IMG/VR virus record: IMGVR_UViG_3300024520_000605
Span: 1 to 20,314 of that record
DNA: 20,314 nucleotides
Strand: one strand, 5' to 3'
Origin: a virus
Shown: in pieces, positions 1 to 20,314 of the stretch
Layout of the letters: each line of letters opens with the position of its first letter
How positions within the stretch are numbered: the first letter of the stretch is position 1
Notes under the pieces: generated by a model
Told to the model about the DNA's origin: nothing
Databases searched by the model: none
Seen by the model: only the letters and a program-made list of their open reading frames with translations
Program-made: the position numbers and the translations under genes

Positions 1-146
1 CCGATACGGTCACGTAGTCCACTTCGATCGGAACGGAATCAAGCCACGCCGTCGGAATTCCGCTGCTCAATCGGTCAAGCAACTTCGACCCGTTGAGCCG
101 ATACCCACTCGCCGCAACAACTGAGCCCGAGACGCGCACGGCCGTG
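1..146. repeat. Left copy of terminal overlap (circular contig end)
   Basis: Bases 1-146 match 20169-20314. Bases 21-146 are identical (126 bases). Bases 5, 11 and 20 differ (t/g, c/t, c/g). The overlap lies inside the head-tail connector gene, and joining the copies keeps its frame. The length of the exact part is what a de Bruijn assembler would leave with a k-mer of 127, so an assembly overlap of a circular or circularly permuted molecule is the simplest reading. A true direct terminal repeat cannot be excluded from sequence alone. Confidence 0.9.
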
Positions 147-358
147 ATCGACGAGGCCGGCTTCTCGAGCACCAGCGCCCCCGAGAACGGTGCGGTATGC
201 GGCTCAGCCGTCACCGTGTCGCCCTCGTAGTCGTGTCCGACCTGGGAAGCAATCAGCGCCGACACCGCATCAACAAAACCACCGATGACGTCGTCATCGC
301 TGCTGGATGTCACGCCGGCGTAGGCTCTCACTTTCGCGACCGTGGTGAGTTTAGCCAT
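1..358 (-). CDS. Head-tail connector protein, N-terminal part (gene continues at the right end of the window)
   Basis: This is the 5' part of a gene that leaves the window at base 1 and continues at 20168 down to 19966; the reading frame is kept when the ends are joined, giving 186 residues. The ATG at 358-356 overlaps the stop of the 88-residue gene upstream by 8 bases. The N-terminus (MAKLTTVAKVRAYAG, then an acidic DDDVIGG turn and a helical VDAVSALIASQVG stretch) resembles HK97 gp6-type connector proteins, which typically start with a short segment before a DD turn and a long helix. Such proteins form a ring under the portal and join head to tail. Its place between the capsid gene and the HK97 gp10-like gene agrees with that role. 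The family assignment comes from pattern and synteny, so it is likely but not proven. Confidence 0.75.
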   Translation of the reverse strand, partial: MAKLTTVAKVRAYAGVTSSSDDDVIGGFVDAVSALIASQVGHDYEGDTVTAEPHTAPFSGALVLEKPASSITAVRVSGSVVAASGYRLNGSKLLDRLSSGIPTAWLDSVPIEVDYVTVS

Positions 359-617
359 CGGTTGACTCTGTCTCAAGATCCGTTGCAGACCCCACCTCAA
401 GAATGACCTTCTCAAGTTTGTATTGCGAGATAAACGCGTGAACATCTTCGGGGATCTCGCCGCCAATCTCGAGCTGCTTCGGGATCATCTTCCCAAGGCG
501 TTGAATGCAACGCGCATCGGGTAGCCCGTTCGCATCCCCCACGATCATTGAAAGTTTCCGACTGTTGCGGAATTTTTGCTCCGCAATCTCGTTTTTGTCT
601 GACGTCGCTTTCGCCAT
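351..617 (-). CDS. Small protein of unknown function downstream of the capsid gene
   Basis: This is an 88-residue protein that I do not recognise. A longer frame is open to 713, but the ATG at 617-615 is preferred: AGGAA lies 8 bases upstream, and a longer start would run through the hairpin at 631-690 and into the capsid gene. The protein begins MAKATSDKNEIAEQKF, has a basic middle (RNSRKLS, RLGKMIPKQ) and an acidic end (LETESTDG). No membrane segment or signal peptide is visible. It lies between the major capsid gene and the head-tail connector and overlaps the connector start by 8 bases. This slot often holds a small head protein such as a decoration or completion factor, but nothing in the sequence demonstrates that. 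Confidence 0.75.
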   Translation of the reverse strand: MAKATSDKNEIAEQKFRNSRKLSMIVGDANGLPDARCIQRLGKMIPKQLEIGGEIPEDVHAFISQYKLEKVILEVGSATDLETESTDG

Positions 618-630
618 TCTTTCTGTTCCT

Positions 631-690
631 CTCAATGAGTGCCGCCGAATAGCGGCGCTCGGCACGTGCCAAGCGCCGCCATTCATTGAG
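631..690 (-). promoter_or_regulatory. Hairpin between the capsid gene and the next gene (attenuator or mRNA-stabilising structure)
   Basis: The 28-base segment 652-679 is an almost perfect palindrome. In minus-strand RNA the only imperfect pair is a G-U wobble (660/671), so up to 14 pairs can form around a minimal loop. An outer 8-base inverted repeat (631-638 with 683-690) encloses it. It starts just after the capsid stop codon and ends at the Shine-Dalgarno site of the next gene. No U-tract follows, so it is not a textbook intrinsic terminator. A partial terminator or a 3' mRNA stabiliser for capsid message would fit. Confidence 0.6.
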
Positions 691-691
691 C

Positions 692-2170
692 CTAGTAGAC
701 CATCTTTCGCCAAGAAGCGTTCGTACCGACTGCACTCGTCGGAATGACACGACCGTCGAGCCGCTCGTCAATCACCCACGTCCGAAGACCCGTCGAAACA
801 GCGCGCTCCGAATCGACTCGAATCCCCTGACGGTTGCCGAGCCCGTACCATTTCGGGTCACCGAAATAGATCACATCGTCCGCAACGGGGATTTCGTAGA
901 TGCGCTTATTCAGAAGCCGCCCCGCTTGGTCGGAATCGGTATCCGAAATCACGCGCGCATCTTGCAATGCCGACAAGAAGATCGGCCGGTTGACCGTATC
1001 GTTGATCACCATGATGTCGGCCAACGTGGTTCCCGCGCAGAAAAACGCCGCATCTCGGCGATACTGCTCGGGCACCGCGTAATACAGCGCGACAATATCC
1101 GCATAGGCAAGCACCGACGGCGTTGTTTCGGCGACGTCGATAATCGTCGCACCGTCGAGACCCTCTGTGATGTCGGAACCTGCCCCGGTTGACGTCGCAA
1201 TCTGCACGTCTTCCTCTGCGCCGATCGCGCCGCCTGCAACCACCGTGAGCTGATTCGCGATATTGAAGCTCGAATCTTCAGTGAAGTTGCGCCCCGCACT
1301 GAACTCAACGCCCAAATCGGTCGCGGCCAAAAGAGCCGAATCCGGGTCAGGTGTATTTTCCGCATAGGACGCGTTTTCAGCTCGGGTTGCCGCCGCCGCC
1401 GTGGGAAGCACGGGCACCCGTACCGTTTGACTCGACATGGGAAACGTGGTCACGAGGCCGCGCATTTTACTCGCTCGGTCCCGTTCCATGATGAGCTGCC
1501 CCGCAAGCGGAAGCGGAAGCAATTCAGCGCCCGTCCCCGAAGCGAACCCCGAATCAGCATTGGGCGTACCCTCGAGCAGCGCCGCACGCTGAGACGCGCC
1601 GACACCGAGCCCCTCGAGATACGCGTCATTGATCTCGTTATAAGATCGGATTCGGCCCTCGATGTTGCCCGTGTTTACGTGCGTCGCCCATTGCTTGACC
1701 ATCTTGTCGATGCCAGGATTTCGAGCCGATCGAAACTCAATCCGCTCTTCCGCCGATCGGTTGTGATCGTTTTCGAGCTTGCGGTAGAGCGGCTCGATTG
1801 CCGAACCGACCGCGCGGAACGTCGAGATTTCGACGCTTTCACCGCCTGCGGGTCGACGATGTTCGCTGCGCTCGCCTCCCTCGTCGCGGCTTCGCTCGCT
1901 GTCTCGCTTCGGAATCGGCGCGCGCCGACTGCGGCTCGTTTCGATCTTCTCAGCGAACTCGTTCACCGCCTTGAGCGCCTCGTCACGCGCGTCTGAACGC
2001 ACGCCCTCGATTGCGCCGGCGAGCTTCTCAGTCATCCGGTTGAGAGCATCCTCAGCCGAGCCCTGGCCCCCGCCCTCGTCCTGGTCGTCGTTGCGCTTAA
2101 AGCGCCGCCGCTGCGATTCCTCGCTGCGACGTTGTGCCCGATTGGGCCTGGTCATTTTCTTTCGTGTCAT
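692..2170 (-). CDS. Major capsid protein, HK97 fold, with long N-terminal delta (scaffold) domain
   Basis: This 492-residue protein forms the head shell. From about residue 207 it reads as an HK97-type capsid protein (Phage_capsid family): an FASGTGAELLPLPLAG stretch, then RASKMRGLVTTFPM and TVRVPVLP, and near the end IYFGDPKWYGLGNRQGI. That part is about 285 residues, close to the mature HK97 subunit (282). Roughly the first 190-200 residues would be the delta domain, which acts as a built-in scaffold and is removed by the prohead protease. It is very charged (RRSEESQRRRFKRNDD near residues 14-29), has a probable coiled coil at about 39-78, and then an Arg/Ser/Glu-rich low-complexity stretch at 79-112. 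The ATG at 2170 follows the protease stop by one base and has GGGGAG upstream; an alternative ATG lies five codons in. Confidence 0.93.
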   Translation of the reverse strand: MTRKKMTRPNRAQRRSEESQRRRFKRNDDQDEGGGQGSAEDALNRMTEKLAGAIEGVRSDARDEALKAVNEFAEKIETSRSRRAPIPKRDSERSRDEGGERSEHRRPAGGESVEISTFRAVGSAIEPLYRKLENDHNRSAEERIEFRSARNPGIDKMVKQWATHVNTGNIEGRIRSYNEINDAYLEGLGVGASQRAALLEGTPNADSGFASGTGAELLPLPLAGQLIMERDRASKMRGLVTTFPMSSQTVRVPVLPTAAAATRAENASYAENTPDPDSALLAATDLGVEFSAGRNFTEDSSFNIANQLTVVAGGAIGAEEDVQIATSTGAGSDITEGLDGATIIDVAETTPSVLAYADIVALYYAVPEQYRRDAAFFCAGTTLADIMVINDTVNRPIFLSALQDARVISDTDSDQAGRLLNKRIYEIPVADDVIYFGDPKWYGLGNRQGIRVDSERAVSTGLRTWVIDERLDGRVIPTSAVGTNASWRKMVY

Positions 2171-2171
2171 T

Positions 2172-3032
2172 TTATCGACTCCCCGTGAGCCGCTCGAGCA
2201 CGTCGCCGAGCGCCTCCTTCAGATCGGCACCATCCGATCGGCCAGCTCGCTCGAGCTGGTCGAATGTAACGTCCAGTGCATGATTAACGCTGAGCATTCC
2301 TTCCGGGTTGTCGTCGCTAGAGTCGTCGCCCGACCCTGCTTCCCTTGCCGCCTCGAGCTGCTCAACGCTTCGCTCGAGTGCGCCTATGATCTCGCTCGCC
2401 CTGACCGTCGCCGGGTCATCAATTCGCGAAATCAGTCCATCCCACATTTTGCGGGACACCTCCGAAGTCGCCTCGCCCTGACGTCCAATCAGGGCCTCGC
2501 GATCCGCGGGGATACCTACGATTGATTGCTCAATCGCTTTCGATGCTTCAAAGAAGAGGCCGTACTTTTTGCGGTAGTTCTTCTCGGTGTTCGTCACCTT
2601 CGCAAAATGCTCTTTCGGCAAGTCGCGGCGTTCAACGTGCTTGATCGAGTCCCACGTGAGGGACGTCCCCCGCACGTGACCGCTCGAGATCGCGTCGACT
2701 AGATCGCGCCTCGCCTCGAGCTGCTCGCCGTCACCCGTCAACCGAATCTGCCCGACACCGCGCAGCGCCGGCAAGCCGTCAACCTTGTCACGTCGCATTT
2801 TGGAGACGGTGCCAAGATTCGACTGCACCGCTCTAGAGTGATCCATTTGCAGGGGGATCGTATCTGCGAATTCGAGGCCGCGAATCGAAATGATATGCCC
2901 GTCGCTGGCCTCGCCTTCGGTCGCGAGCACCATATCGAACTCACCCGAATCGGTGTCGATCGCTGAGTCAATGCGGCACTGGCGCGAGATACGCTCGGGC
3001 GCCGGGTCGGCACGGTAGAATCGTCGTCTCAT
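2172..3032 (-). CDS. Prohead protease (HK97 family, peptidase S78-like)
   Basis: This serine protease matures the prohead by cutting the capsid delta domain. The chosen ATG at 3032 lies one base after the portal stop and has GAGGGGG upstream; the open frame extends to 3107 but only inside the portal gene. The protein is 286 residues. The family hallmarks are present: LQMDHSR with candidate catalytic His65, SGHVRGTSLTW with candidate nucleophile Ser124, and a later AIEQSIVGIPAD segment like the conserved block that closes the catalytic domain. HK97 protease uses His65 and Ser114, so spacing is similar. The C-terminal part (about 187-286) is polar, acidic and helical (SSDDNPEG, then LKEALGDVLERL), perhaps a core-forming or self-cleaved region. 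Location between portal and capsid is the classic HK97 order. Confidence 0.88.
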   Translation of the reverse strand: MRRRFYRADPAPERISRQCRIDSAIDTDSGEFDMVLATEGEASDGHIISIRGLEFADTIPLQMDHSRAVQSNLGTVSKMRRDKVDGLPALRGVGQIRLTGDGEQLEARRDLVDAISSGHVRGTSLTWDSIKHVERRDLPKEHFAKVTNTEKNYRKKYGLFFEASKAIEQSIVGIPADREALIGRQGEATSEVSRKMWDGLISRIDDPATVRASEIIGALERSVEQLEAAREAGSGDDSSDDNPEGMLSVNHALDVTFDQLERAGRSDGADLKEALGDVLERLTGSR

Positions 3033-3033
3033 C

Positions 3034-5190
3034 TCAAACCCCCTCGAGCACCGGCGTCGAAAAACACCGGCAATTGATCGCGTTGTGAGCAGACAATCGG
3101 CCGCCATCCGCTGAAACCCTCGGTGCCTGCGCCTCTTCGCCGTCGCCGAGAATGAAGACCTCGTCCACTCGAGCGGTTTGGCCGTCGATTTCGTGAGTGT
3201 CTCTCACATCGCCGTCACGCGCGTTGTTCCAGCGCTTGAGCGTGACAACGTCGGATTCGATATAGCCGGCGAGCTGACCCGTTGACGTCGCCCAGCCGAC
3301 CTCGGTGCGTGCGATCGTTCGAGCCCGCGACTTCGACGCCTGGTTGAAGACCTTGCGAATTCTCGAGGCCAGCTCTTCCTCGCTCTCGCCCGCCTCGAGG
3401 CCCTTTCCGATTGAGTTCCGCAGGCGCTTTTTCGTAGTTGCCGTCGTTTTAGTGACAAGATCGGCGCCCATTTCTCGCACGGCCTTGACTGCGGCGTCAT
3501 TGAACGAGAGAGACGGCCGGACCTCGAGATCGGCAAGCACGTTCTCGGCCGACTTCTGATAGACCTCGAGACTGACGGGGAACATGATCGTCTCAAACAC
3601 GCGCCCGAACTCGAGGCTCTCGAATAGGTCGTCGATCCAATCTCCCCGCGAAAACGCCCGGGCCGTTTCCTCGTCGACATTCTCAGTCTCGCGTAGCGCC
3701 GCAATCGCTAGCCCTTTCTGAGCTGCGAACGCTTGACGCGCGGCGCTGGTCATACGCGGAATGAACGCGGCCTCACTTTGCATCAGGCGCTGCCAACAAG
3801 CATCCGGCGTGAAACGAGACAAGACCCGAGGATGAAAGCTCCCAGACGCGCGCGCTGCCCGTGCGGCGTCGTCCTCGTCGGTTTCACCGGCGATCTCAAC
3901 GGGGGGCGGTTGGTGTGAGTCCTCATCCTCGAGCCCAAACGCATCGGCGTCGTACGGCACGTCACCAAACGACCCAACGGGCAAGTCGCCCCACGTGACA
4001 GGCTTTTCCCCTCGATCGGCGAGAATCTGATTGACCGAGCGCACCTTAAGCGCAGCGTCTTGCGCCTCGGTTCTCAATCGAAGGTCCGCATCTTCATCGA
4101 TGAACTGCTCAAACGCAACGCGCGTGTCTCGGCCATACTCGGGAAATGCAACCTGATGTGAGAGTGCGTCTGCGATCAGGCGCGTCTGCGGCTTGATCGT
4201 ATGGCGATCAAAGACAAGTCGGTTCGTATCGGCAGCCGCTCGATTAGCGTCGACGACATCGCCCAGAATCGAGCGAGGAACGCCGTTCGCCATCAGCAGT
4301 GTGTCTCGGCCATACTCGAGGAACGAGCGCACTGAGTCGATGTCAGAGAGCCCGCCCAGCTCATGCACCTTGTAGCCATTCGGTAGGAACGCCGGCACGC
4401 CCTGGTTTTCGCCCCCGCGCCGGTTGTATCGGTTTTGCCAGTCTGCCCAGAATTGTTCCCGCTGCCCCTTGCCGGCCACTTCGGCGTCGTCGGACGCCTG
4501 CAATACAAGTTTGGGCGTCGCATCGTTTTTGAAATGCCCCCGCATCGTTGAGCCCGCGAATTCGGTTGCGTCGAAATTGGACGCCTGCGGCCCGATGACT
4601 CCAACACCCTTGAATGGGTCGCTCGGGTCGGGGTCATACATGTGCACGACCTCTTCACGGCCGTAGCGAGTCTCACCGGCCTCGCCGTGGAACACGTAAC
4701 CACTAATCGGCATAAGGTCGTCAGAAAGCGTCTCGATGTTCTGCGGACTCATGGGCCAGAATTCTCGAGTCGAGCCGGCGCCATTCGTCACAATCAACCA
4801 GTAAGCCGAGCCCGTCTGGGTGAGCCAATAGCTGGTGAGCTTCAGCATTTGATTGCGAGATAGATAGGGGTTTGGCCGATCGAGCACGTCGAGTAGGGGA
4901 TGCTCTAAATCGTCCTCCCAAAAGCGCACGCCCTCCGGCCCTCGCACTCGATTCTGCACCACGAACTCGAGGTCAGAAAGCCGGCCAGCGATTGCTCGAG
5001 CGGCTGTTGCTTGCACGCCGACGAACCCGTCCGAGAGTAAGACGCTCGGGCCGGGTTGTTGCGTTGAGCCTGTGATGCCCTGGCGGAACGCACCGAAACG
5101 ATAAATGGGTTGAGTCAATGCGCGAGCGCCGCCGAATACGGATAGAGCGGCACGCCGTGCCTTGTCTGCGAGTTTCGCGAGCCGTCCCAT
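3034..5190 (-). CDS. Portal protein fused to a MuF-like head morphogenesis domain
   Basis: This 718-residue protein would form the dodecameric portal ring through which DNA enters and leaves the head. Residues about 45-440 match the HK97-type portal pattern: HPLLDVLDRPNP, QTGSAYWLIV, EEVVHMYDPDPSDPFKGVGVI, FLEYGRDTLLMANGVPRSILGD and NQILADRGEKPV. After a linker with acidic DEDDAARAARASG, the C-terminal 100 residues (from about 620) match phage Mu gpF-like proteins: RARTIARTEVG, RDTHEIDGQ and the terminal NCRC cysteines. MuF proteins are minor head components, usually encoded by a separate gene next to the portal; here both are one reading frame without a break. The start ATG (5188-5190) has AGGGGGGCGG just upstream, 8 bases after the previous gene. 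Confidence 0.92.
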   Translation of the reverse strand: MGRLAKLADKARRAALSVFGGARALTQPIYRFGAFRQGITGSTQQPGPSVLLSDGFVGVQATAARAIAGRLSDLEFVVQNRVRGPEGVRFWEDDLEHPLLDVLDRPNPYLSRNQMLKLTSYWLTQTGSAYWLIVTNGAGSTREFWPMSPQNIETLSDDLMPISGYVFHGEAGETRYGREEVVHMYDPDPSDPFKGVGVIGPQASNFDATEFAGSTMRGHFKNDATPKLVLQASDDAEVAGKGQREQFWADWQNRYNRRGGENQGVPAFLPNGYKVHELGGLSDIDSVRSFLEYGRDTLLMANGVPRSILGDVVDANRAAADTNRLVFDRHTIKPQTRLIADALSHQVAFPEYGRDTRVAFEQFIDEDADLRLRTEAQDAALKVRSVNQILADRGEKPVTWGDLPVGSFGDVPYDADAFGLEDEDSHQPPPVEIAGETDEDDAARAARASGSFHPRVLSRFTPDACWQRLMQSEAAFIPRMTSAARQAFAAQKGLAIAALRETENVDEETARAFSRGDWIDDLFESLEFGRVFETIMFPVSLEVYQKSAENVLADLEVRPSLSFNDAAVKAVREMGADLVTKTTATTKKRLRNSIGKGLEAGESEEELASRIRKVFNQASKSRARTIARTEVGWATSTGQLAGYIESDVVTLKRWNNARDGDVRDTHEIDGQTARVDEVFILGDGEEAQAPRVSADGGRLSAHNAINCRCFSTPVLEGV

Positions 5191-5198
5191 CCGCCCCC

Positions 5199-5732
5199 CT
5201 AATTCCCGACCACAACGGGCTCACGGATTGTCTCGAGCAGCTCGACGCCGGACGCATCCAGAAATATTTCAATCCGTAACTGCATTCCCGGTTTTACGTC
5301 GGCATGATTGTGCAGCATCGTGCCCTTGAAGCCCCAATCCGTCGTCAAGAGCCCCGGAGTGCCATATGTGGTGAGGGTGACATCCGCGCCGATCGACGTA
5401 AGCACTCGAGCACCAGCGCTCGCCGCCGAGGCCAAGCCCGTGGTCACTGTGACCTCGTCGGCGTCCAGATCGCGAGCCGTCACTGTGCCCGCATCGTGAT
5501 AAGTGCCGTCGTCGAGCATTACCGTAACGTCTGAGCCGACTTCGATCGACCGAGCACGATCAACGCTGAGAACCGTTTGCGAGGTCGCCTCGTCGGCGCT
5601 CAGCTCTGTTTCGTGATCCTCGTCGAATAGGCGCGCGGTACAAGTGCCCGACGAAATCACCGTGTGAGGATCGGGCTCGGTATTGATCGGGGCGACGAGG
5701 CGTATGAGATTGTCGCTCAGGTATCGGATCAA
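5199..5732 (-). CDS. Unrecognised beta-rich protein between terminase and portal
   Basis: This is a 177-residue protein of unknown function. It starts with TTG at 5732 in a TTGA overlap with the stop of the gene upstream; GAGGGGAG sits at a good distance, and no methionine codon lies close downstream. The middle has a hydrophobic/acidic strand pattern (EVGSDVTVMLDDGTYHDAG, then TVTARDLDADEVTV and an Ala-rich SAASAGA turn) typical of a small beta-sandwich or barrel as found in many virion structural proteins. The C-terminal part includes HNHADVKPGMQLRIEIFLD. No signal peptide or membrane segment is visible. It is translationally coupled to the repeat protein before it and precedes the portal by 8 bases. 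A virion structural or decoration role is only an inference from position and composition. Confidence 0.82.
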   Translation of the reverse strand: MIRYLSDNLIRLVAPINTEPDPHTVISSGTCTARLFDEDHETELSADEATSQTVLSVDRARSIEVGSDVTVMLDDGTYHDAGTVTARDLDADEVTVTTGLASAASAGARVLTSIGADVTLTTYGTPGLLTTDWGFKGTMLHNHADVKPGMQLRIEIFLDASGVELLETIREPVVVGN

Positions 5733-7355: not shown

Positions 7356-8711
7356 CTAGCCCCCCTCGTCGGCCTCTGGTGGATATAAATCGTCCCACGT
7401 GGTGCCGGCTTTCACGCCAAGCGTAGCGTGTGCGCCCGAGAGCGAGTCGACCTGGTCGTCGTGACCTTTATCTGACCCGTCGAAATCCTCTAACTCATCG
7501 ATCCATTCTCCGTACCACGGGCCGAGCAGAACGCCGACTCGGCCTTGATGCGCGGCACTCGCTACGGGTCCAGAGCGTACCACTTTCGACCCCGTAGGCC
7601 GATGAAACCGCACCGTGAAACCCTCGAGTTCTCGAGCCAGCGCACGTGCGGCGATCTTGCCCGAAGCCCCGCCCTCCTGCTCTATGTGGATCTCGACTTC
7701 GACGCCATCGGCAATCGCAACCTCGCGAATCCATGTCTCGAGCGGCCCCGGCTTCTTCCGCTGTCGCTTGACGTCGGCGACGAGGTAATCAACCGAAGCG
7801 TTGAACAGCGACTCGTAGCGGGTGCCCACCGACCAGTCGGGGTCTTTGCCCTCTTTCTCTTCCGTCGCTGCGAGATCCCAGTACCGAATGCGACGCCGGA
7901 CCTTGCCTGGTCGGGTCGTGAACTTCTCAAACCATTCGCGATGAAATAGAGCTCCCGGAGGCCGAGCGTCCCAATCCCCGTCCATGAGCTGCGCTTTTTC
8001 GTGCGGGTGTAGTTCGTTGAGACTCGTCTCATAATCGTCGGCGTCGATATGCGGATTGTCCCTGAGCTTCGACGGCACGAATGCGCGCGCATGATTCACG
8101 AGCGAGGCCGGCGCCTCGTCGATATTCGTGGCCTCCGTAATCAATCTCTGCTTGACCCACTGATGGCCCTCGCCTCCCGGGTTGCTCGTACTCCGAACTC
8201 GAATGGGGATGACGCTTGCCATGCGCCGGCGCTGACGGGAAAACGCGATGTAGCGGTATTGGGCAAGCAAAAACTGCGTCAGCTCATCGAACCCGACGAA
8301 ATGATAGGCGCCGCCCTGGTAGTTCTCGCGATCTTTCAAATGCTGGCAATGCCCGAAATGCAACTCAGCGCCGCTCGAGAACTTGTATTTGGTCGCCTTA
8401 CCATCGACGCTCGCGTACCCGTGCGCCTGACCCGTAAGCCACTCGTCGGCAATGTCTAGAAGCCCTTCGGCAATCGCGAGCTGCGAGAACGTGCGACGCA
8501 CAATCAAGGCGCGATACTCGGGGAAGTCGACGAATTGCAACGCCGCAGCGAGCAGGAAAAACGACTTGCCGCCGCCGGCCGCACCGCCAAACAACATCTC
8601 TCTTTTCCAATCCATCGAGAGTGCGATTGATTGACGAGGCGTCGGGTCGATCGGTACGTCAATGGACGACGGCCAAACGAGATCGCCGAGCTCCCAGCTC
8701 GAGACGGTCAC
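7356..8711 (-). CDS. Terminase large subunit (ATPase and nuclease)
   Basis: This 451-residue motor protein pumps DNA into the prohead and cuts it. The N-terminal ATPase has a Walker A loop GGAAGGGKS at residues 42-50 and a Walker B strand HFVGFDE at 137-143, with an RSTSNPGG stretch (about 173-180) like the coupling motif. The C-terminal RNase H-like nuclease shows the expected acidic triad: Asp279 in RYWDLA, Glu344 or Glu346 in HIEQEGG, and Asp418/Asp419 in GHDDQVDS. Length is normal for the family. The start codon is GTG at 8711-8709 in a GTGA overlap with the small subunit stop. All motifs are intact, so the enzyme should be active. Confidence 0.95.
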   Translation of the reverse strand: MTVSSWELGDLVWPSSIDVPIDPTPRQSIALSMDWKREMLFGGAAGGGKSFFLLAAALQFVDFPEYRALIVRRTFSQLAIAEGLLDIADEWLTGQAHGYASVDGKATKYKFSSGAELHFGHCQHLKDRENYQGGAYHFVGFDELTQFLLAQYRYIAFSRQRRRMASVIPIRVRSTSNPGGEGHQWVKQRLITEATNIDEAPASLVNHARAFVPSKLRDNPHIDADDYETSLNELHPHEKAQLMDGDWDARPPGALFHREWFEKFTTRPGKVRRRIRYWDLAATEEKEGKDPDWSVGTRYESLFNASVDYLVADVKRQRKKPGPLETWIREVAIADGVEVEIHIEQEGGASGKIAARALARELEGFTVRFHRPTGSKVVRSGPVASAAHQGRVGVLLGPWYGEWIDELEDFDGSDKGHDDQVDSLSGAHATLGVKAGTTWDDLYPPEADEGG

Positions 8712-9369: not shown

Positions 9370-9440
9370 AGCGCCTCGTTCAAGAGCAACCGATAGCGGT
9401 AGAGACCCCGTGGACACTCTGGGCACGCGCTACGCAGCAT
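9366..9440 (-). CDS. 24-codon minigene with a CxxC motif, coupled to both neighbours
   Basis: An ORF of 24 codons fills the gap between the HTH gene and the 75-residue gene exactly. Its ATG (9440-9438) shares one base with the HTH gene's stop (TGATG), and its own stop (9368-9366) overlaps the next ATG (ATGA). GGAGG lies 8 bases upstream, among the best ribosome sites in the window. The peptide starts MLRSACPECPRG and ends in a Leu-rich segment (YRYRLLLNEAL). Two cysteines spaced CxxC could bind metal as half of a zinc site in a dimer, but this is speculation. It could instead be a leader peptide that only serves to couple translation. Confidence 0.55.
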   Translation of the reverse strand: MLRSACPECPRGLYRYRLLLNEAL

Positions 9441-9658
9441 CACCGGCGCCTCCATTCTCGAATACATCGGCACAGGTCGATCCAAGCTTCATAGTCGTTG
9501 AGATGCACAAGCGTCCTACCGCCGCTCCTGGTTACTCGCAGTCGGCCGGACTGAATCTGGCGATAGATCGTCGGCGTCGTCACGCCAGCGCGCTCGGCGA
9601 CTTCTACGATCGTCAGAAGGCGCGCAGGCTTGGTCAGTTCTAGTTCTCGTCTCGTCAT
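9440..9658 (-). CDS. HTH DNA-binding protein, MerR/excisionase-like
   Basis: This is a 72-residue protein with a single winged-helix-like HTH domain. LLTIVEVAERAGVTTPTIYRQIQSGRLRV (about residues 14-42) is the helix-turn-helix pattern of the excisionase/MerR group (HTH_17), followed by a wing-like SGGRTLVHLNDYEAWI. The ATG at 9658 has AGAGG 9 bases upstream and is preferred to the GTG at 9676. Such proteins act as excisionases or as small transcription regulators. With no integrase in this genome, a regulatory role at the head of the late genes, or a DNA-architectural role in packaging, is more likely than excision. Its stop overlaps the following minigene start. Confidence 0.82.
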   Translation of the reverse strand: MTRRELELTKPARLLTIVEVAERAGVTTPTIYRQIQSGRLRVTRSGGRTLVHLNDYEAWIDLCRCIREWRRR

Positions 9659-9677
9659 CTGAATACACCTCTGCACG

Positions 9678-9908
9678 TCATTGGGATCGATGCGGCTTTG
9701 CCGTCGTTCGTTGCCTCACGGCCCCTGGTTGATGGGGCACGGCAACGAACGCGAGGGTGAGTCGGAACGGCTCGCCGAGCCTCATTAGGAGTGCAGCGAT
9801 AGACGATGTCAACTCTGGGAATCCACCCCACGCACGCAAATACAGAGCATGATCAAGCATCGTCGAGCATTTGGGCGAATGAGTGAGATTCAAAACGAAA
9901 CAATTCAT
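9678..9908 (-). CDS. Uncertain 76-residue ORF downstream of the repressor-like gene
   Basis: An ATG at 9908 overlaps the stop of the Xre-like gene (ATGA), which is the coupling style used throughout this genome. The product (MNCFVLNLTHSPKCSTMLDH...) has no recognisable domain; the middle is hydrophobic and the end basic (VRQRTTAKPHRSQ). There is no good Shine-Dalgarno site, codon choice looks less GC-rich at third positions than in the structural genes, and the strong inverted repeat at 9705-9751 falls inside the frame. It may be a real small gene or a non-coding regulatory stretch that happens to be open. Confidence 0.4.
   Translation of the reverse strand: MNCFVLNLTHSPKCSTMLDHALYLRAWGGFPELTSSIAALLMRLGEPFRLTLAFVAVPHQPGAVRQRTTAKPHRSQ
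9705..9751. other. Large inverted repeat (possible regulatory hairpin, terminator-like or origin/cos structure)
   Basis: Bases 9705-9715 (cgttcgttgcc) are the exact reverse complement of 9741-9751. Inside them 9721-9725 (gcccc) pairs with 9734-9738 (ggggc) around an 8-base loop. The result is an 11-pair stem, an internal loop, a 5-pair stem and a loop. Neither strand has a T-tract after the stem. It lies between the two regulator genes and upstream of the terminase genes, a region where a control structure, packaging site or origin could be located. Confidence 0.6.
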
Positions 9909-10102
9909 GCCGGGTTTTGTAGCGTTTCCCATTCCGTCGCTTTAAGCCCGACCGCTTTTGCGAGCTTTCGTCCCGTCGTTTTCGTCGTCGGGCGCTGGCC
10001 GCGTTCGATGAATCCCACGAGTGCGTGCGAGCACCCGGCAACGCTTGCGACCTGACGGAGTGTCATTCCCTTGCGTCGTCGGGCGAGTTCTAATTTTGTC
10101 AT
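9905..10102 (-). CDS. Xre-family HTH repressor-like protein
   Basis: This is a 65-residue single-domain Cro/C1-type HTH protein. LELARRRKGMTLRQVASVAGCSHALVGFIERGQRP (about residues 4-38) shows the five-helix Xre pattern, including an S-x-x-x-V-G-F-I-E-R-G-Q-R block at helices 3-4. The ATG at 10102 has GAGAGG 6-8 bases upstream and is preferred to an upstream start at 10135. It is transcribed divergently from the SSB operon, the usual arrangement for a repressor or Cro-like switch controlling early genes and itself. There is no C-terminal peptidase or oligomerisation domain, so it is nearer to Cro in size than to a LexA-like repressor. Confidence 0.85.
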   Translation of the reverse strand: MTKLELARRRKGMTLRQVASVAGCSHALVGFIERGQRPTTKTTGRKLAKAVGLKATEWETLQNPA

Positions 10103-10180
10103 GTGATTTCCTCTCGTTGTGTACGCTGTCAACAAACGCTAAGGTAGCAAAGACGCCAATAAAGGCGCGGGAGAATCAAA
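10103..10180. promoter_or_regulatory. Divergent control region between the repressor-like gene and the SSB operon
   Basis: These 78 bases separate two divergent genes, so promoters for both directions must lie here or nearby. A perfect minus-strand TTGACA (plus-strand 10127-10132) is a candidate -35 box, but no good -10 box follows it before the repressor start. Two direct ACGCT repeats (10123-10127 and 10136-10140) flank GTCAACAA and could be operator half-sites. A small CGCC/GGCG hairpin (10154-10167) sits just before the SSB gene's GGGAGA ribosome site (10169-10174). Exact promoter positions cannot be set by eye. Confidence 0.4.
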
Positions 10181-10846
10181 ATGACACAAATTAAACGTCG
10201 ACTCGGGGACTATGCCAGTAGTCAATTTCTCAACTCTCAAGACGTGATCGGCCAAGAGGGTCCAGCCGTGATCACGGGCGTCGCCGAACGCGCAGTCAAG
10301 GATGATCGAAAGCCGGGTGGCGAACGGTTAGCCATTATGATCACCTTCGATCGCTGGCCGGATAAGGGTTACGACTGCAATTCAACGAATATTCGAGTAT
10401 TGCAGGATATGCTCGGCGAAGATGTGACACCCGATGAACTCCGCGGCGTGCGCGTCTTCCTGACGACGCATCAAACTAACTTCGGTCGGGGCATACTGTT
10501 TCAGCCACCGCAGGATTCGATGCACGACGCTCAAGCCGCAGCGCGGCAGCGCATCGCTAATGCGCGAGAAGCGCAACATGCCGCGCCCGATGAGCGTTAC
10601 CAGCCCGCACCGCCCGCGCCGCTCGTCCTTCAGCATTCGCACGACGTAGGGAACGTCTGCGATCCGCTTTCGTGCGACGTTGCGCGGGCAATCGATCTCG
10701 GCCATGCGGTCACCGAGACCTGGCCGCCGCCCCCGGCATTCGTCCCAACGAATCAGCCGGCACCCGTCGTCCAAGAGACGGCGTCGCAACGCTTCGCCAA
10801 TGAAGTGATTGCGGCGCCCGTCGATCCCGAAGAGATTCCGTTCTAA
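10181..10846 (+). CDS. Single-stranded DNA-binding-like protein with SSB-type C-terminal tip
   Basis: This 221-residue protein is the only clear candidate DNA-metabolism gene. Residues about 27-110 (ITGVAERAVKDD, ERLAIMITFDRWPDKGYDCNSTN, DMLGEDVTPDELRGVRVFL) follow a pattern seen in phage OB-fold-like ssDNA-binding proteins: a short strand pair, an Asn-containing turn, a helix ending in LG, and a G-x-R/K-V strand. A long Pro/Ala/Gln-rich disordered linker follows. The last residues, DPEEIPF, match the acidic tip (D/E-rich then IPF) by which bacterial SSB recruits host replication and repair proteins. The ATG has GGGAGA 6-7 bases upstream. It probably coats phage ssDNA and attracts host enzymes. 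The OB-fold call is by pattern and less certain than the tail. Confidence 0.72.
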   Translation: MTQIKRRLGDYASSQFLNSQDVIGQEGPAVITGVAERAVKDDRKPGGERLAIMITFDRWPDKGYDCNSTNIRVLQDMLGEDVTPDELRGVRVFLTTHQTNFGRGILFQPPQDSMHDAQAAARQRIANAREAQHAAPDERYQPAPPAPLVLQHSHDVGNVCDPLSCDVARAIDLGHAVTETWPPPPAFVPTNQPAPVVQETASQRFANEVIAAPVDPEEIPF

Positions 10847-11079
10847 TGCGGGGCAAGGTCGCACGAGCGCAAGCTGGCGCTGATCACTGGTACACCCGCT
10901 ATCAGGACGAGGTCAAACGATACGCGCAACTCGAAGAAACCTGCGCCGATGCTTTGCTCGAGGTCGAGCGTCTGACCAATACCAACCTCGAGCTGCGCGA
11001 GAGAATTAAGCAGCTCGAAAAACCGGCGCCGTCGGGCGTCCAGTGGTCGCGTGAAGTCGACTACACGAGAGAGGCGTAA
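10846..11079 (+). CDS. Small coiled-coil protein of unknown function
   Basis: This is a 77-residue protein whose ATG overlaps the SSB-like gene's stop (TAATG), so it is translationally coupled. Residues about 15-58 form a clear amphipathic helix with heptad-like leucines (YAQLEETCADALLEVERL, NLELRERIKQLEK), predicting a coiled-coil dimer or trimer. A basic N-terminus and a short tail (SREVDYTREA) flank it. I see no catalytic or DNA-binding motif. As part of the early operon it may modify the SSB-like protein or a host factor, but there is no direct evidence. Confidence 0.75.
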   Translation: MRGKVARAQAGADHWYTRYQDEVKRYAQLEETCADALLEVERLTNTNLELRERIKQLEKPAPSGVQWSREVDYTREA

Positions 11080-11081
11080 CT

Positions 11082-11291
11082 ATGAAAGTCAAAATAGAAT
11101 TTCACACGGCCCATGCGGCGGAACTCATCGAGTATCTACTCGCGCGTCGGCGCGACGCAGAAAAAAACGTAGTATCCGAGTTTGAATTGCCCTGGGAAGC
11201 GAGAGGTGACGCTAGAAACACGATTCATGGTGTTTTGACGAACCTAGTCACCGAGATTCGGCGACAACTGCTGAACCCTGGAGACGTTTAG
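11082..11291 (+). CDS. Small unknown protein of the early operon
   Basis: This is a 69-residue protein starting at an ATG two bases after the previous stop, with GAGAGGCG upstream. It begins with a strand-like MKVKIEFHTAHAAELIEYLL, continues with a charged helix (ARRRDAEKNVVSEFELP) and ends with a helix (HGVLTNLVTEIRRQLL). The compact alpha/beta character suggests a small soluble protein. No family is recognised. Its stop shares one base with the next gene's GTG. Confidence 0.72.
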   Translation: MKVKIEFHTAHAAELIEYLLARRRDAEKNVVSEFELPWEARGDARNTIHGVLTNLVTEIRRQLLNPGDV

Positions 11292-11476
11292 TGCCGACCT
11301 CACCCGAAGCTGAAGCAATTGCAAAACATGCGCGCGCCGTCGAACGAGTCCGCATTGCAGTAGAGCTGCTTGGCGGCCTTATCGAAAATGAGACGACGGC
11401 CGACGTGTCGTCGGTGCTTCTCGAGATAGAGCGGGTACAAACGCTGCTAGCAAAAGCAATACCCGACATCGAATAG
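11291..11476 (+). CDS. Small helical protein, last gene of the early operon
   Basis: This is a 61-residue protein with a GTG start sharing a base with the previous stop (TAGTG). The sequence is almost fully helical and amphipathic (AEAIAKHARAVERVRIAVELLGGLIEN, then SVLLEIERVQTLLAKAI), suggesting a small helical bundle or dimer. No family is recognised. Evidence that it is real comes from tight coupling with the gene before it and from the terminator that follows 28 bases after its stop. Confidence 0.68.
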   Translation: MPTSPEAEAIAKHARAVERVRIAVELLGGLIENETTADVSSVLLEIERVQTLLAKAIPDIE

Positions 11477-11503
11477 CTCGGCCCCGAGACGCACACGGCC
11501 TGG

Positions 11504-11538
11504 AAGCGCCCGCAGACTACGGTTTTCGGGCGCTTTTC
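11504..11538 (+). terminator. Intrinsic-type terminator of the early operon
   Basis: Bases 11504-11512 (aagcgcccg) pair with 11527-11535 (cgggcgctt), a 9-bp GC-rich stem with a 14-base loop, followed on the plus strand by a T-rich stretch (tttt, cgg, tttt). It lies 28 bases after the last plus-strand gene and faces the end of the late unit. On the minus strand no T-tract follows, so termination of the late transcript by the same hairpin is less certain. Confidence 0.75.
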
Positions 11539-11657: not shown

Positions 11658-11668
11658 TGACGCCGGCT

Positions 11669-12010: not shown

Positions 12011-12024
12011 ATTGGCCCCCTCAA

Positions 12025-12435: not shown

Positions 12436-12439
12436 GAGT

Positions 12440-12730: not shown

Positions 12731-12890
12731 CGTCACTCGCGCTGATGAGTCCGACCCCCGCAAGAGCAGGCACGACCAATTCAACGATCACGGCAATTAA
12801 ATCAGAGCCCGTTAAAATAGCCGCGACCAGACTGATACAAGCCGACCCGAGAGTGAGAAATCCAGCAATCGTTGTTTTAGAGTTTTTCAT
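12720..12890 (-). CDS. 56-residue holin-like membrane protein
   Basis: This small gene was read by hand: the ATG is at 12890, 10 bases after the tail hub stop, and the TGA ends at 12720. The protein begins MKNSKTTIAGFLTLGSACIS, has two hydrophobic segments (about residues 8-27 and 31-50) joined by a short TGSD turn, and ends ASDGGF. This is very similar in design to small phage proteins of the K-N-x-K-T-T-x-A-G type that end in G-L-x-x-A-x-D, often annotated as holin-like. Position directly after the tail genes and before the DUF5675 gene supports lysis. No strong Shine-Dalgarno site precedes it. The gene after it overlaps or closely follows its end. Confidence 0.72.
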   Translation of the reverse strand: MKNSKTTIAGFLTLGSACISLVAAILTGSDLIAVIVELVVPALAGVGLISASDGGF

Positions 12891-12899
12891 TTTAGCCAC

Positions 12900-15383: not shown

Positions 15384-15385
15384 CG

Positions 15386-16189
15386 CTAAAGACGATCCTC
15401 AACGAAGTCGAATGCGAACTTGTACCGTAGGCCCTGCTGCGGCGCCTTGAACTCTTGCCGGCGCGTAGGTTCGCTAGCGAGGCGCACGAGAAATGGTCCC
15501 TCGTCCGTGTCATCCGGCGGCCAGTACCAAAACGATCGGCCTCGAGCCTGCAACACTGAATCGAGGATCGTATAGTCCGAGCCGCTCGGGTCGATGTCGC
15601 GCACCTCGAGCGAGAATTGACGACGTGGCGCAGCGAGTTCTACGGCTGCTATTCCGCTCGGGTACTCCGTCTCAATCACCTGTGACACGAACCCGTTCTG
15701 CCAACCCGGCTGCACCGCGGCTGCCGTCGAGAGCTGCTCGTAAACGCCGAGCCAGTAGCCCGCGCACGTGTACGTGCGAGCCGATGACGTCGAGAGTTGA
15801 AATCCCCAGTAACGCTCGTTCCCGCTCGACAGCGTCCGGTCAATCACACCCGAGCCCGACACCGCGGCGCTTGAGGCCGTTGTCGGGCTCGGCAACGTGA
15901 GGCCGTCGTCATGCAACACCTCGAACGTCTCGGTGTCGAAGTCGTGCCCCGATGGTATGACGAGTCGATTCGCGGCCGGCGAGGGAATCGCAAGAGTATC
16001 GACCCGTACGCCAGCGTCGACACCCGTCGCCGTGTAGATACCGAACACGCCTTGCCGGCCGTCAATGAACTTCCGGCGCTCGTCGTTCGTGAGCGTTGAC
16101 GTGTTCGTAGCCTCGTCGACGTCGTTCGCTACGTCGGTGATTGCCGAGAGCAGATTGTCAACCATGAAAGCGGGGGAGCGGTACGTCAT
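15386..16189 (-). CDS. Distal tail-like (minor tail) protein
   Basis: This is a 267-residue protein whose ATG overlaps the tape measure stop (ATGA) and whose stop is two bases before the tail hub gene. That is the slot of the distal tail protein (Dit), which forms the ring between tube end and hub. The sequence has an N-terminal helix (MVDNLLSAITDVANDVDEATN), then beta-rich stretches (VFGIYTATGVDAGVRVDTLAIP, HDFDTETFEVLHDDG) and a C-terminal half with aromatic-rich strands (RYWGFQLSTSSARTYTCAGYWLG, GRSFWYWPPDD). No enzymatic motif is visible. The call rests on synteny rather than on a recognised signature. Confidence 0.7.
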   Translation of the reverse strand: MTYRSPAFMVDNLLSAITDVANDVDEATNTSTLTNDERRKFIDGRQGVFGIYTATGVDAGVRVDTLAIPSPAANRLVIPSGHDFDTETFEVLHDDGLTLPSPTTASSAAVSGSGVIDRTLSSGNERYWGFQLSTSSARTYTCAGYWLGVYEQLSTAAAVQPGWQNGFVSQVIETEYPSGIAAVELAAPRRQFSLEVRDIDPSGSDYTILDSVLQARGRSFWYWPPDDTDEGPFLVRLASEPTRRQEFKAPQQGLRYKFAFDFVEDRL

Positions 16190-17619
16190 CGGACTAGCCT
16201 CGAGCCCGACCCGTCGGCCGTGCGAATGCGCGTCCCGCCTTGGGTCGTCTGTCGACCTGCGGCCAGCGCGGCGTCAACGTCGGCTTGTGAGCGTCGATCT
16301 CGAGCGGTTAGGCGGCCCCCGGTTGCGGCGTTCACTTGAGAGGCTGCGCGCGCTGTGCGCTCGAGCGAGCGCGTTAGGTCGTCTGTTTCCCCGCGTAGCG
16401 ACCGCTCCGCTTGTTCGTATGTGACTAGCGATTGAGTTGCGTTGTCAGTCTCAATGACTACCTCACGTTTTGCAATGTTTCCAGCGATTTCGGAGTTTGT
16501 GAGATCATTCACGCTACCCGCGGCCGTGACGACTACGCGAGAATATTTGTCCGTTTCGATAACGGCCTCTTCGACTTCCACCGTCAGTTTTTCCTGCTTA
16601 TCAGCCGCGGCCACCATTGCAGCATTGAGAGCGGCTAGACGATCGTTCAGCTCGAATGCTCGAGCGGAACTCAAGCCCATCATCGCGCGCCCAATCGAGA
16701 GTGCGTCAGAGAATCGCGAAATGAGGCCCGTCGCCGTAACTAAGTTGTCCGCGAGAGTCTTAACTTGTTGGCCGAACTTCCTCATCGAGGTGACGAGTGG
16801 ATCGATGTCCGTGATGAGCTGAAACGCCTGAGTAGCCATCTCAGCGAATCCCGTAGCCGCATCCCCGATTGCGCCGAGAAATTTCGGGGAGCTGATCACG
16901 TCCCGCACCTTTGTAAGCGCTGTCCGCAGTCCCTCGTTCTCTGTGATCGCCGTGCCGATCACCTCTTGCACGGTCCCCCATGCGTTGCCGAGCTGCTTGA
17001 CGACCCCCGAGAACGTGCCGACTTTGGCAGCCGCCGAGCCGCCCAACCGATCCACCACAACTTCGAGAGCAGCGCCCGCCTTGAGCTGCTCAACGGTCAT
17101 TCCGGCGACTTCCGGCACCAGCTCGCCGAGCTCCCCGCGGAATCCGTTGAGCGTGCGAGCTAGGTTGATGAATGACGATTCGAGAGTCGTCCCCGTTGCC
17201 GCCGAAAGCTCGACGGCCGCCGCGGTGAGCTTGCCGGCTTGATCCGCGTTCACGCCGAGGTTAATCGCGAGCGCCTGGTTCGATATGATCGCCTCGTCTG
17301 AGAACGTAGTGGTCTGCTCGAGTGCCGCGGCCTGAGCCTGCAACGCTTGAGAGACCTCGCCCGCTCGAGGTCCGAGACTGGAAAGTGACTGGTCGAGCTT
17401 TACGACCGCGTTTTCTTGCTCTTGAGCAGCGCCGACGACGGCGCCGGCGGCGCTCGCAACCGACTTGAATAGTCCGACAATGTCGCCCAGCGTAATCGTG
17501 AACTTGGACGCGAGGAAGTTGCCGAGCTTCGAGAACGAGCCGCCGACGTTGTCAATCTGCGGTGACGCCTTGTCTTGTACTTCAATGATGACGCGTTGCT
17601 TGAAATCGCCTCGAGCCAT
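16186..17619 (-). CDS. Short tape measure protein
   Basis: This is a 477-residue, mostly helical, Ala/Gly/Leu-rich protein that would set tail length and leave the tail during DNA ejection. It shows tape-measure features: an N-terminal VIIEVQDKASPQIDNVGGSFSKLG, a hydrophobic LFKSVASAAGAVVGAA, and the PhageMin_Tail-like segment with ALEQTTTFSDEAIISNQALAINLG, LTAAAVELSAATGTTLESSFINLARTL-like and later VVKQLGNAWGTVQEVIG. At the usual 1.5 angstrom per residue this predicts a tail of roughly 70 nm, short for a siphovirus. The C-terminus is basic and Gln/Thr/Arg-rich. The ATG has GGGGGGCGG upstream and starts only 21 bases after the tail tube gene. Confidence 0.9.
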   Translation of the reverse strand: MARGDFKQRVIIEVQDKASPQIDNVGGSFSKLGNFLASKFTITLGDIVGLFKSVASAAGAVVGAAQEQENAVVKLDQSLSSLGPRAGEVSQALQAQAAALEQTTTFSDEAIISNQALAINLGVNADQAGKLTAAAVELSAATGTTLESSFINLARTLNGFRGELGELVPEVAGMTVEQLKAGAALEVVVDRLGGSAAAKVGTFSGVVKQLGNAWGTVQEVIGTAITENEGLRTALTKVRDVISSPKFLGAIGDAATGFAEMATQAFQLITDIDPLVTSMRKFGQQVKTLADNLVTATGLISRFSDALSIGRAMMGLSSARAFELNDRLAALNAAMVAAADKQEKLTVEVEEAVIETDKYSRVVVTAAGSVNDLTNSEIAGNIAKREVVIETDNATQSLVTYEQAERSLRGETDDLTRSLERTARAASQVNAATGGRLTARDRRSQADVDAALAAGRQTTQGGTRIRTADGSGSRLVR

Positions 17620-17640
17620 GCGAGCCGCCCCCCGTTGCCG

Positions 17641-18726: not shown

Positions 18727-18729
18727 TGT

Positions 18730-19146
18730 TCACCCCTCTAACGCGCACTCGGCGCGCACTGTGTACCTGACCACCTCGCCGACGCGATCTAGTTGCCCTT
18801 CGATTGAGACCTCAATCGGGCTTGAGCGTACCTCGTCGAGCCCGGTCCAGAACGAATCTGCGCCGACACTCCCCACAATGGCCGAGAGAGCGTCCTCGGC
18901 CGTCTCGAGCTGCGCCGGCGTCGAACCTGCGGCCCTGTGGAGTAGATCAACCTCAACGGTTGCAATCGTGACCGTGAGATTCGATCCAACGCTAGCCGCC
19001 TCGACACCGCTAATCCGTATGGCCGCACGATACGTCGAGCGCTCAACGCGCTGAGAGTCCAGCGTCCCAGAGGTCAGAATCACAAACGACGGCGAGAGCG
19101 CAACAAGCGCCGCCTCGAGGTCGGTTTTGAGATCCGCCACACTCAT
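18730..19146 (-). CDS. Tail terminator-like protein (second of two)
   Basis: This is a 138-residue protein between the head-closure genes and the tail tube, where the tail terminator or tail completion gene lies. It opens with MSVADLKTDLEAALVAL, continues with strand-like STYRAAIRISGV and NLTVTIATVEVDLLHRA, a helix (TPAQLETAEDALSAIVG), and ends with VVRYTVRAECALEG. This order (helix, two strands, helix, strands) resembles DUF3168/gpU-like terminators that cap the tube. The ATG overlaps the stop of the neighbouring 135-residue gene (ATGA). Assignment is by topology and position. Confidence 0.68.
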   Translation of the reverse strand: MSVADLKTDLEAALVALSPSFVILTSGTLDSQRVERSTYRAAIRISGVEAASVGSNLTVTIATVEVDLLHRAAGSTPAQLETAEDALSAIVGSVGADSFWTGLDEVRSSPIEVSIEGQLDRVGEVVRYTVRAECALEG

Positions 19147-19550
19147 TCGACGCGCTCCGTTTCAATCTCAGCGGCCATGACGACAAACGCTCCGTCTTGA
19201 GCCTCGCCCCACGTCTCGAGCACAAGGTAGGCGTCTTGCAACCCGACGACGTTCCCGCCGAGATATTGGTCCGCAACCAGCGCGTCTCGAAAGGCCGCCC
19301 ACTCGTCGAGCCGGGTCGTCCGGTCGATCGTGGTGCGCCACCATACCGTCACGGCTAGCGCATCCGTCCACGTCGACTGGCCGTATACAATCCGGTCCCC
19401 GCGAGATCCAAGAGCACGCACCGCCGCATGTCGCGACGAGCCCTCAACGCTCGGTTGCGACTTCGGGCCCTGTGTCGTGTGGTCGAGCCCCACCGTATAC
19501 GTGCCGAGCATCGTGGCGAGTGCGCTCTCAAGGTCGCTCTCAACGCTCAT
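19143..19550 (-). CDS. Tail terminator/completion-like protein (first of two)
   Basis: This is a 135-residue protein with the layout of DUF3168-type tail completion proteins: an N-terminal MSVESDLESALATMLGTYTVGLDH, a strand with WTDALAVTVWWRTTID, a helix (RLDEWAAFRDALVAD) and a final strand pair (AYLVLETWGEAQDGAFVVMAAEIETE). It sits after the HK97 gp10-like gene and before another protein of similar length and similar start, with four-base overlaps on both sides. It probably acts at the head-tail or tail-end interface. The assignment is by pattern and gene order. Confidence 0.7.
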   Translation of the reverse strand: MSVESDLESALATMLGTYTVGLDHTTQGPKSQPSVEGSSRHAAVRALGSRGDRIVYGQSTWTDALAVTVWWRTTIDRTTRLDEWAAFRDALVADQYLGGNVVGLQDAYLVLETWGEAQDGAFVVMAAEIETERVE

Positions 19551-19969
19551 TGGCGGCCCCCAACGCGCAACAACGCCCGACGGAACACGCTCGCCGCTTT
19601 CGTTTCCATAACGAAATCAGCGGCCGGCCTGAGGAATGGGCGCTTCGGATACGGCGCCAGCCCGAGCTCATGCACGGGGGCATATTTGACATTCGAGCCA
19701 ACGACGAATTGATTAGGCCGACCGCTCAAGTCGGTTGAGATCGAACCGGAAAGGCGACCCGATCGAAAAGAAAGCTTGCGACGCAACGGGGGCGAAACTC
19801 GGCCACGGCCCCGAATGATTTCAACCTCTTTAGCTCGCTGCTCGACGAGGCGCGCAATACTCTCGAGCGCCTGGTCGACGACGGCCCCGCGCACTTTCGG
19901 GTCAAGGTCATCGAGGAACGTGCGAATCTTCCTTGAGTCGAGCACGTTTACGCGCACGCCGGTTGTCAT
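19547..19969 (-). CDS. HK97 gp10-like head-tail joining protein
   Basis: This 140-residue protein has the HK97_gp10 signature: an N-terminal strand (VRVNVLDSRKIRTFLDD), a helix (VRGAVVDQALESIARLVEQRAKE), a GRVSPPLRRKLSFRSGRLSGSIS segment, then VVGSNVKYAPVHELG followed by YPKRPFLRPA, which is the typical Y-A-x-x-x-E-x-G...P-x-R-P-F-L block. Proteins of this family join the connector to the tail during assembly. The ATG overlaps the connector stop by four bases, and its own stop region overlaps the next gene by four bases. The order connector, gp10-like, terminator, tube, tape measure is classical. Confidence 0.9.
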   Translation of the reverse strand: MTTGVRVNVLDSRKIRTFLDDLDPKVRGAVVDQALESIARLVEQRAKEVEIIRGRGRVSPPLRRKLSFRSGRLSGSISTDLSGRPNQFVVGSNVKYAPVHELGLAPYPKRPFLRPAADFVMETKAASVFRRALLRVGGRQ

Positions 19970-20314
19970 ATAACTTGCCGATGATTCCGCAGCGCCATCC
20001 GAGCAACCGGCAACTCTAAAAGCGCCTGCGTGAAATAGTCGGCCGATCCGGTGTCGGCATTTGCTTGAGCTGAGAGCCCGAGCCGCGAGCCGCCGGCCGT
20101 CACGCTCGATTGCTTGAGCACAAACGAGGCAATCTCTCGCGCCGCAAGCTCGAGGTCCGCGGGGATGTCCGAGACGGTTACGTAGTCGACTTCGATCGGA
20201 ACGGAATCAAGCCACGCCGTCGGAATTCCGCTGCTCAATCGGTCAAGCAACTTCGACCCGTTGAGCCGATACCCACTCGCCGCAACAACTGAGCCCGAGA
20301 CGCGCACGGCCGTG
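19966..20314 (-). CDS. Head-tail connector protein, C-terminal part (gene begins at the left end of the window)
   Basis: This is the 3' part of the gene whose start is at 358-356. Codons run in the same phase across the terminal overlap, so an apparent start at 20307 is only internal. The part seen here includes VRVSGSVVAASGYRLNG, PTAWLDSVPIEVDYVTVSD, then ADLELAAREIASFVLKQSS and the end YFTQALLELPVARMALRNH. The pattern of a strand-rich middle (V-x-Y-x-x-G-like) followed by a helix starting with an acidic PADLELAA block is typical of gp6-like connectors, where P-x-D/E-L-x-x-A is well conserved. The stop overlaps the start of the HK97 gp10-like gene (ATGA). Confidence 0.82.
   Translation of the reverse strand, partial: TAVRVSGSVVAASGYRLNGSKLLDRLSSGIPTAWLDSVPIEVDYVTVSDIPADLELAAREIASFVLKQSSVTAGGSRLGLSAQANADTGSADYFTQALLELPVARMALRNHRQVI
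20169..20314. repeat. Right copy of terminal overlap (circular contig end)
   Basis: Bases 20169-20314 match bases 1-146, with the last 126 bases identical. The three differences (20173, 20179, 20188) are all third codon positions of valine codons in the connector gene and change no amino acid. This fits two closely related genomes in the sample, with the assembled path passing from one to the other at the ends. Confidence 0.9.

Follow-up and report, generated by a model that had tools for sequence, protein, structure and literature searches.

Frame-independent excess of the palindrome CTCGAG in a tailed-phage genome and in its relatives

The stretch of DNA analysed here (the window) is one virus record, IMGVR_UViG_3300024520_000605, with 20,314 bases and a GC content of 59.7%, and the subject of this study is the palindrome CTCGAG, which occurs 66 times in it. 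Because a terminal direct repeat is present and contig L028, a nearly identical sequence from another record, spans the terminal junction, the window is considered a complete genome of ~20.17 kb. The predicted HK97-type capsid, portal and terminase genes (PF05065, PF04860, PF03237/PF17289) indicate that the phage belongs to the tailed phages (Caudoviricetes). The terminal repeats contain 0 CTCGAG and the circular count is still 66, so double counting through the repeats was ruled out.

The sites showed a Poisson-like spread over the whole window (variance/mean 1.10 in 1-kb bins), and this spacing rules out regulatory or regularly spaced sites. The original prediction, made from the letters alone, had reported 18 sites in 2161-5220, about ten more in 12900-16200 and three in a plus-strand operon; the recount gave exactly 18, 10-11 (one site straddles the edge) and 3 (in 10181-11500). 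Its statement that GTCGAC is much rarer in the same stretch is matched with 3 copies in 2161-5220, and its chance expectation of one CTCGAG per 3-4 kb agrees with one per 3.1 kb under the independent-base model.

The 66 observed sites compare with 6.6 expected from base composition and 21.5 expected from trinucleotides (order 2). It had been proposed that a count near the Markov expectation from the internal 4- and 5-mers would dissolve the finding. We calculated this maximal-order (order 4) expectation as 41.4-41.8, and the excess persisted, even though CTCGAG itself inflates this expectation, as it contains most of the CTCGA and TCGAG words. We also used a synonymous-shuffle null in which all proteins, the codon counts and the junction dinucleotides between codons stay unchanged. 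Under this null, 64 in-gene sites were observed against 31.4+-4.1, and CTCGAG had the largest z of all 4096 hexamers. Around the TCGA cores, left C and right G co-occurred with an odds ratio of 5.3 (p = 5e-10), which was the strongest flank association among the 64 palindromes in the window, and a general TCGA or CTCG excess was rejected as the cause by this test. Thus a genome-wide palindrome far above Markov expectation, as in highly iterated palindromes (HIPs), is present in the window.

CTCGAG was found in all three codon phases as had been noticed before, with an in-gene split of 42/13/9, and the example sites given for the phases were located at 2193, 2250, 2683 and 3168, at most 8 bases from their estimated positions. 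The in-frame Leu-Glu sites are the majority by number, but they do not lead in enrichment: relative to independent codon frequencies, CTCGAG was enriched 4.0x in frame and 8.6x and 4.9x in the second and third frames, and the intervals overlap. Leu-Glu dipeptides numbered 62 in the window vs 34.5 expected (1.8x); CTCGAG codes 42 of the 62, and Leu-Glu written with other codons showed no excess. Because the Leu-Glu surplus is wholly CTCGAG-coded, the pressure acts on DNA, and the proteins appear to have been shaped by the palindrome rather than the other way round. It means that shuffles with fixed proteins are conservative. A GC-rich host's preference for particular codons, codon pairs or dipeptides (Leu CTC + Glu GAG) could draw support from the favoured use of both codons and from the in-frame share (42 of 64 in-gene sites), but the two other frames show equal or larger fold excess, the reversed Glu-Leu pair GAGCTC is depleted in the window (5 vs 11.2), and the other Leu-Glu codings are not in excess. 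The excess survived two synonymous-shuffle nulls as well as the frame-wise fold test, so this preference, which the original prediction had also judged insufficient, was rejected and is hardly credible as the source of the count; as with HIPs, the CTCGAG excess in the window is not explained by codon or amino-acid use. As a separate observation, CTC made up 7% of Leu codons before a C-starting codon vs 40-58% before other bases in the window genes, and this avoidance of CTC before C is a strong context effect at codon junctions.

Relatives were gathered by terminase and portal searches. Two related clades with about 63-66% nucleotide identity to the window were obtained: A/B (L005/L006 and L008/L009, with L290) and C (L007/L010). 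Because L006 and L008 are 96% identical to one another over 4.9 kb, with L290 at 86%, A and B are not independent lineages. A check on related phages had been suggested; in clade A/B as well as in clade C, CTCGAG headed the palindromes by over-representation. The more distant relative L291 (portal 56% identical) carried 15 sites vs 7.1 expected. Remoter terminase relatives (28-49% identity) were mostly without CTCGAG excess and several had 0 sites. In the closer relatives the frame-wise excess was about 4-8x, the exception being a single frame in clade A with 1 site against 0.9 expected. Leu-Glu was in excess by 1.9-2.1x in the three relative sets, vs 0.94 pooled in other phages, and here too the surplus was CTCGAG-coded.

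About a third of the window sites were shared with each relative set (12/35, 15/48 and 9/33), and the window and its relatives each carry sites missing in the other. Site density is kept among relatives even as the majority of single sites turns over. At conserved Leu-Glu pairs, CTCGAG was retained in 33 of 45 cases (73%; window sites summed over clades), vs 10.0 from separate codon conservation. Because this retention is close to the CTCGAG share of Leu-Glu in the window, an equilibrium bias suffices and no site-specific conservation is needed. Phase 1 sites of the window were retained in 0 of 13 cases even with amino acids conserved. Polarised gains and losses of sites in L006, L008 and L290 gave too few events.

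Preferences for other palindromes shift fast between the relatives because GAGCTC and CGATCG differ among them: GAGCTC was depleted in the window (6 vs 16.8) and over-represented in clades A/B, its Glu-Leu pairs were over-represented in clade C (8 vs 2.7), and CGATCG was almost absent in A/B but not so in the window. The non-palindromic word CTCAAG was in excess on the coding strand of the window (17 vs 5.3) in all three frames and CTTGAG showed none; this was not seen in the relatives.

Phages normally lose palindromes, and the original prediction had pointed out that an excess goes against this. In agreement, 115 other viral contigs, selected with an unrelated pattern of 14 bases, mostly had fewer CTCGAG than expected (median z -1). 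The top CTCGAG z among them was 4.7, as compared with 9.6 for the window, and none of their palindromes attained the flank-association p-value of the window. A second set came from searching for three closely spaced CTCGAG, and it included unrelated phages in which the excess equals or surpasses that of the window. Because its contigs were chosen for dense sites, they show recurrence and not the frequency of the phenomenon. Among them, three contigs unrelated to the window had 3.3-4.5 sites per kb: G014, a phage (258 in 56.8 kb, 53 expected), L061 (49 in 14.7 kb, 8 expected) and L148 (46 in 11.3 kb, 12 expected), the latter two with frames nearly even by spacing. CTCGAG/GAGCTC counts in unrelated phages were 318/0 (110 kb), 107/0, 78/0 and 100/1, and high CTCGAG together with near or total GAGCTC absence was seen in L270-L275 (G004), L276-L277 (G009), L283-L285 (G015) and L278-L279 (G013). 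At 1-120 of L138, the start of a 110-kb phage contig, there is a 15-bp tandem repeat with one CTCGAG per unit.

Features of the window, with one gene of a relative, are collected in Table 1. No integrase or polymerase gene was found among the Pfam matches of the genome, and two small helix-turn-helix genes belong to a lysogeny-like region.

Table 1. Coordinates of predicted features and of CTCGAG sites (positions in the window unless a contig is named)
Feature	Position	Strand	Remark
Terminal direct repeat (146 bp), left copy	1..146	+	98% identical to right copy, 3 mismatches
Terminal direct repeat, right copy	20169..20314	+	
Major capsid protein	692..2170	-	PF05065
Head maturation protease/head protein	2172..3107	-	weak match to phrog_617
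Portal protein, C-terminal Mu gpF-like domain	3034..5190	-	PF04860 + PF04233
Terminase large subunit	7356..8711	-	PF03237 + PF17289; query for finding relatives
Small helix-turn-helix protein	9440..9676	-	HTH_17; near the place of the C5-methyltransferase in relative L009/L287
XRE-type helix-turn-helix protein, repressor-like	9905..10135	-	HTH_3/HTH_31
Short operon (g10181, 10846-11079, 11291-11476)	10181..11476	+	3 CTCGAG sites
Densest CTCGAG stretch	2193..5000		18 sites; protease/scaffold-like and portal genes
CTCGAG starts, part 1	164, 468, 1571, 1613, 2193, 2250, 2352, 2373, 2683, 2715, 3043, 3168, 3362, 3394, 3523, 3565, 3610, 3928, 4315, 4764, 4966, 4995		
CTCGAG starts, part 2	5232, 5405, 5850, 5880, 5933, 7623, 7631, 7737, 8374, 8698, 8861, 8969, 8996, 9058, 9193, 10957, 10987, 11420, 11795, 12376, 12912, 13023		
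CTCGAG starts, part 3	13477, 13638, 14964, 15086, 15111, 15303, 15541, 15605, 16199, 16299, 16360, 16659, 17317, 17364, 17610, 17734, 18024, 18904, 19114, 19215, 19862, 20149		
C5-methyltransferase of a relative	L009 8634-9380 = L287 1412-2158	-	window region has only small helix-turn-helix genes

Over-represented phage palindromes have already been reported, and the CTCGAG case is a further, well-documented instance. Subcluster B3 mycobacteriophages have a genome-wide GATC/GGATCC excess whose cause is unexplained (PMC4841201). As there, one palindromic hexamer in the window exceeds expectation more than 4x genome-wide, against the usual palindrome avoidance, and one palindrome stands several-fold above expectation in the whole genome and in close relatives. 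The palindrome and the phage family differ, frame independence was tested for CTCGAG here, and the close cluster B relatives of the B3 phages are without the excess, whereas relatives at ~65% nucleotide identity keep it here. In cyanobacteria, HIP sites occur together with methyltransferases that act on them, and the sites were proposed to stem from a repair bias that depends on methylation (PMC4390886). HIP1 (GCGATCGC) and the other cyanobacterial HIPs resemble CTCGAG as very frequent palindromes with a proposed link to a methyltransferase and repair bias, and in both cases a few alternative palindromes are used by different lineages; however, theirs are cellular genomes with the matching methyltransferase, while here a virus without a recognisable methyltransferase of its own is concerned. 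Nostoc phage A1 (L293) is likewise a phage with a highly iterated palindrome: we computed 27 HIP1 sites in 50 kb vs 0.24 expected. It differs in that its host and HIP site are known and an N6-adenine methylase gene is encoded. Anabaena phage A-4L and Phormidium phage Pf-WMP4 had 0 HIP1 sites. For CTCGAG itself, orphan methyltransferases without restriction partner are known in Nocardiaceae (PMC4752239), with the same recognition sequence and with site enrichment, but that enrichment is local, near dnaA, and phages of Nocardiaceae are not consistently CTCGAG-rich.

By analogy, we consider it likeliest that CTCGAG, which behaves as a phage-borne highly iterated palindrome, is maintained by modification in the host of the phage, with a probability of roughly 0.42. 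It is a genome-wide, frame-independent and strand-symmetric word, the density of which is held by a process at the DNA level while individual sites come and go. The likeliest process would be the action of a host methyltransferase, orphan or restriction-linked, that specifically modifies CTCGAG. Such modification may make CTCGAG safe and may also bias mutation or repair towards it, and in this way the phage would come to carry a host signature, much as has been suggested for the origin of HIP1 in cyanobacteria. The original prediction had spoken of a site that is modified or bound, or of a signature found throughout the host, and this class of explanation still leads as a plausible one; its bound-site part is not favoured, since the sites follow a Poisson spread within genes and are readily replaced.

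Several results weigh against maintenance by host modification. No methyltransferase match was found in the window, so that, unlike in HIPs with a matching methyltransferase in the same genome, no recognisable enzyme accompanies the palindrome; in 22 CTCGAG-rich phage records there were C5 matches in 0/22 and N6/N4 matches in 2/22. Among words one base away from CTCGAG none was clearly depleted, although such depletion would be predicted if conversion in one step were strongly biased. The sampling of cellular genomes covered a single phylum: of 296 Bacteroidota genomes none reached 1.2 CTCGAG per kb, and where genomes of high or skewed count were checked, they had no CTCGAG excess at the hexamer level. 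The host was not found by these searches, so the host signature is something we infer. Phages of Nocardiaceae ranged from 0 to 1.3 CTCGAG per kb, therefore a CTCGAG methyltransferase in the host family alone does not give a density of 3 per kb. Other ways to the host were also tried. Searches through prophages gave only 40-45% terminase matches, in metagenome-assembled genomes of Melainabacteria and Ignavibacteriales; the unrelated CTCGAG-rich contigs L138 and L148 were rejected as guides, being similar in codon use but different in tetranucleotide profiles; and isolate phages gave only distant protein matches to CTCGAG-rich contigs. A VSR-like conversion was rejected too, because CTTGAG/CTCAAG were not depleted and CTTGAG was instead raised, in the window and clade C only.

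Other explanations have to be weighed together with host modification. A broader proposal is an active DNA-level drive to CTCGAG, by modification-coupled repair or mutation or by a site-binding factor, which would raise the Leu-Glu frequency and be the same in several unrelated phages, so that CTCGAG would be a recurrent viral HIP with its own machinery; we regard it as somewhat unlikely. The protecting enzyme could also be of phage origin, if a CTCGAG methyltransferase that is or was encoded by the phage let the site accumulate and the window recently lost the gene. A clade B relative (L009/L287) does carry a C5-cytosine methyltransferase (PF00145, E 3e-32, intact PCQ motif), HhaI-like by sequence, at a place where the window has only small helix-turn-helix genes, and Nostoc phage A1 combines HIP1 excess with a methylase gene. 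But the excess persists in the window, in L028 and in other members, and the window, a complete genome, is without the gene; most CTCGAG-rich phages are without detectable methylase, and protection merely permits sites and does not create a 3-10x excess. This origin is unlikely.

It might also be supposed that CTCGAG is selected as the binding site of a phage or host protein (a nucleoid, packaging, recombination or anti-restriction factor) and that phages with many sites fare better. Frame independence and palindromic symmetry suit a protein that binds DNA as a dimer, the window codes for two helix-turn-helix proteins, and the retention at conserved Leu-Glu is well above that from separate codon conservation. 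Such retention equals the CTCGAG share of Leu-Glu, however, which makes site-specific selection unnecessary, the phase 1 sites were not retained even with conserved amino acids, and the sites lie inside genes with neither regular spacing nor clusters, so we find selection for binding quite unlikely. Displacement, in which avoidance of neighbouring words (GAGCTC, CTCC/GGAG or other restriction sites) drives sequence into CTCGAG, is matched with low GGAG and CTCC and with the depletion of GAGCTC in the window and its near or total absence in several CTCGAG-rich phages. It is very improbable, as clades A, B and C show GAGCTC excess (C in Glu-Leu pairs) alongside CTCGAG excess, and avoidance of single words would probably move counts by far less than 40 sites.

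A phage family with a palindrome at 3-10x expectation in every frame, at some cost to its proteins, is a clean natural case. It lets one ask whether methylation, repair bias or selection gives rise to highly iterated palindromes. Should CTCGAG be shared by the host, the palindrome would be a marker linking uncultured phages to their hosts.

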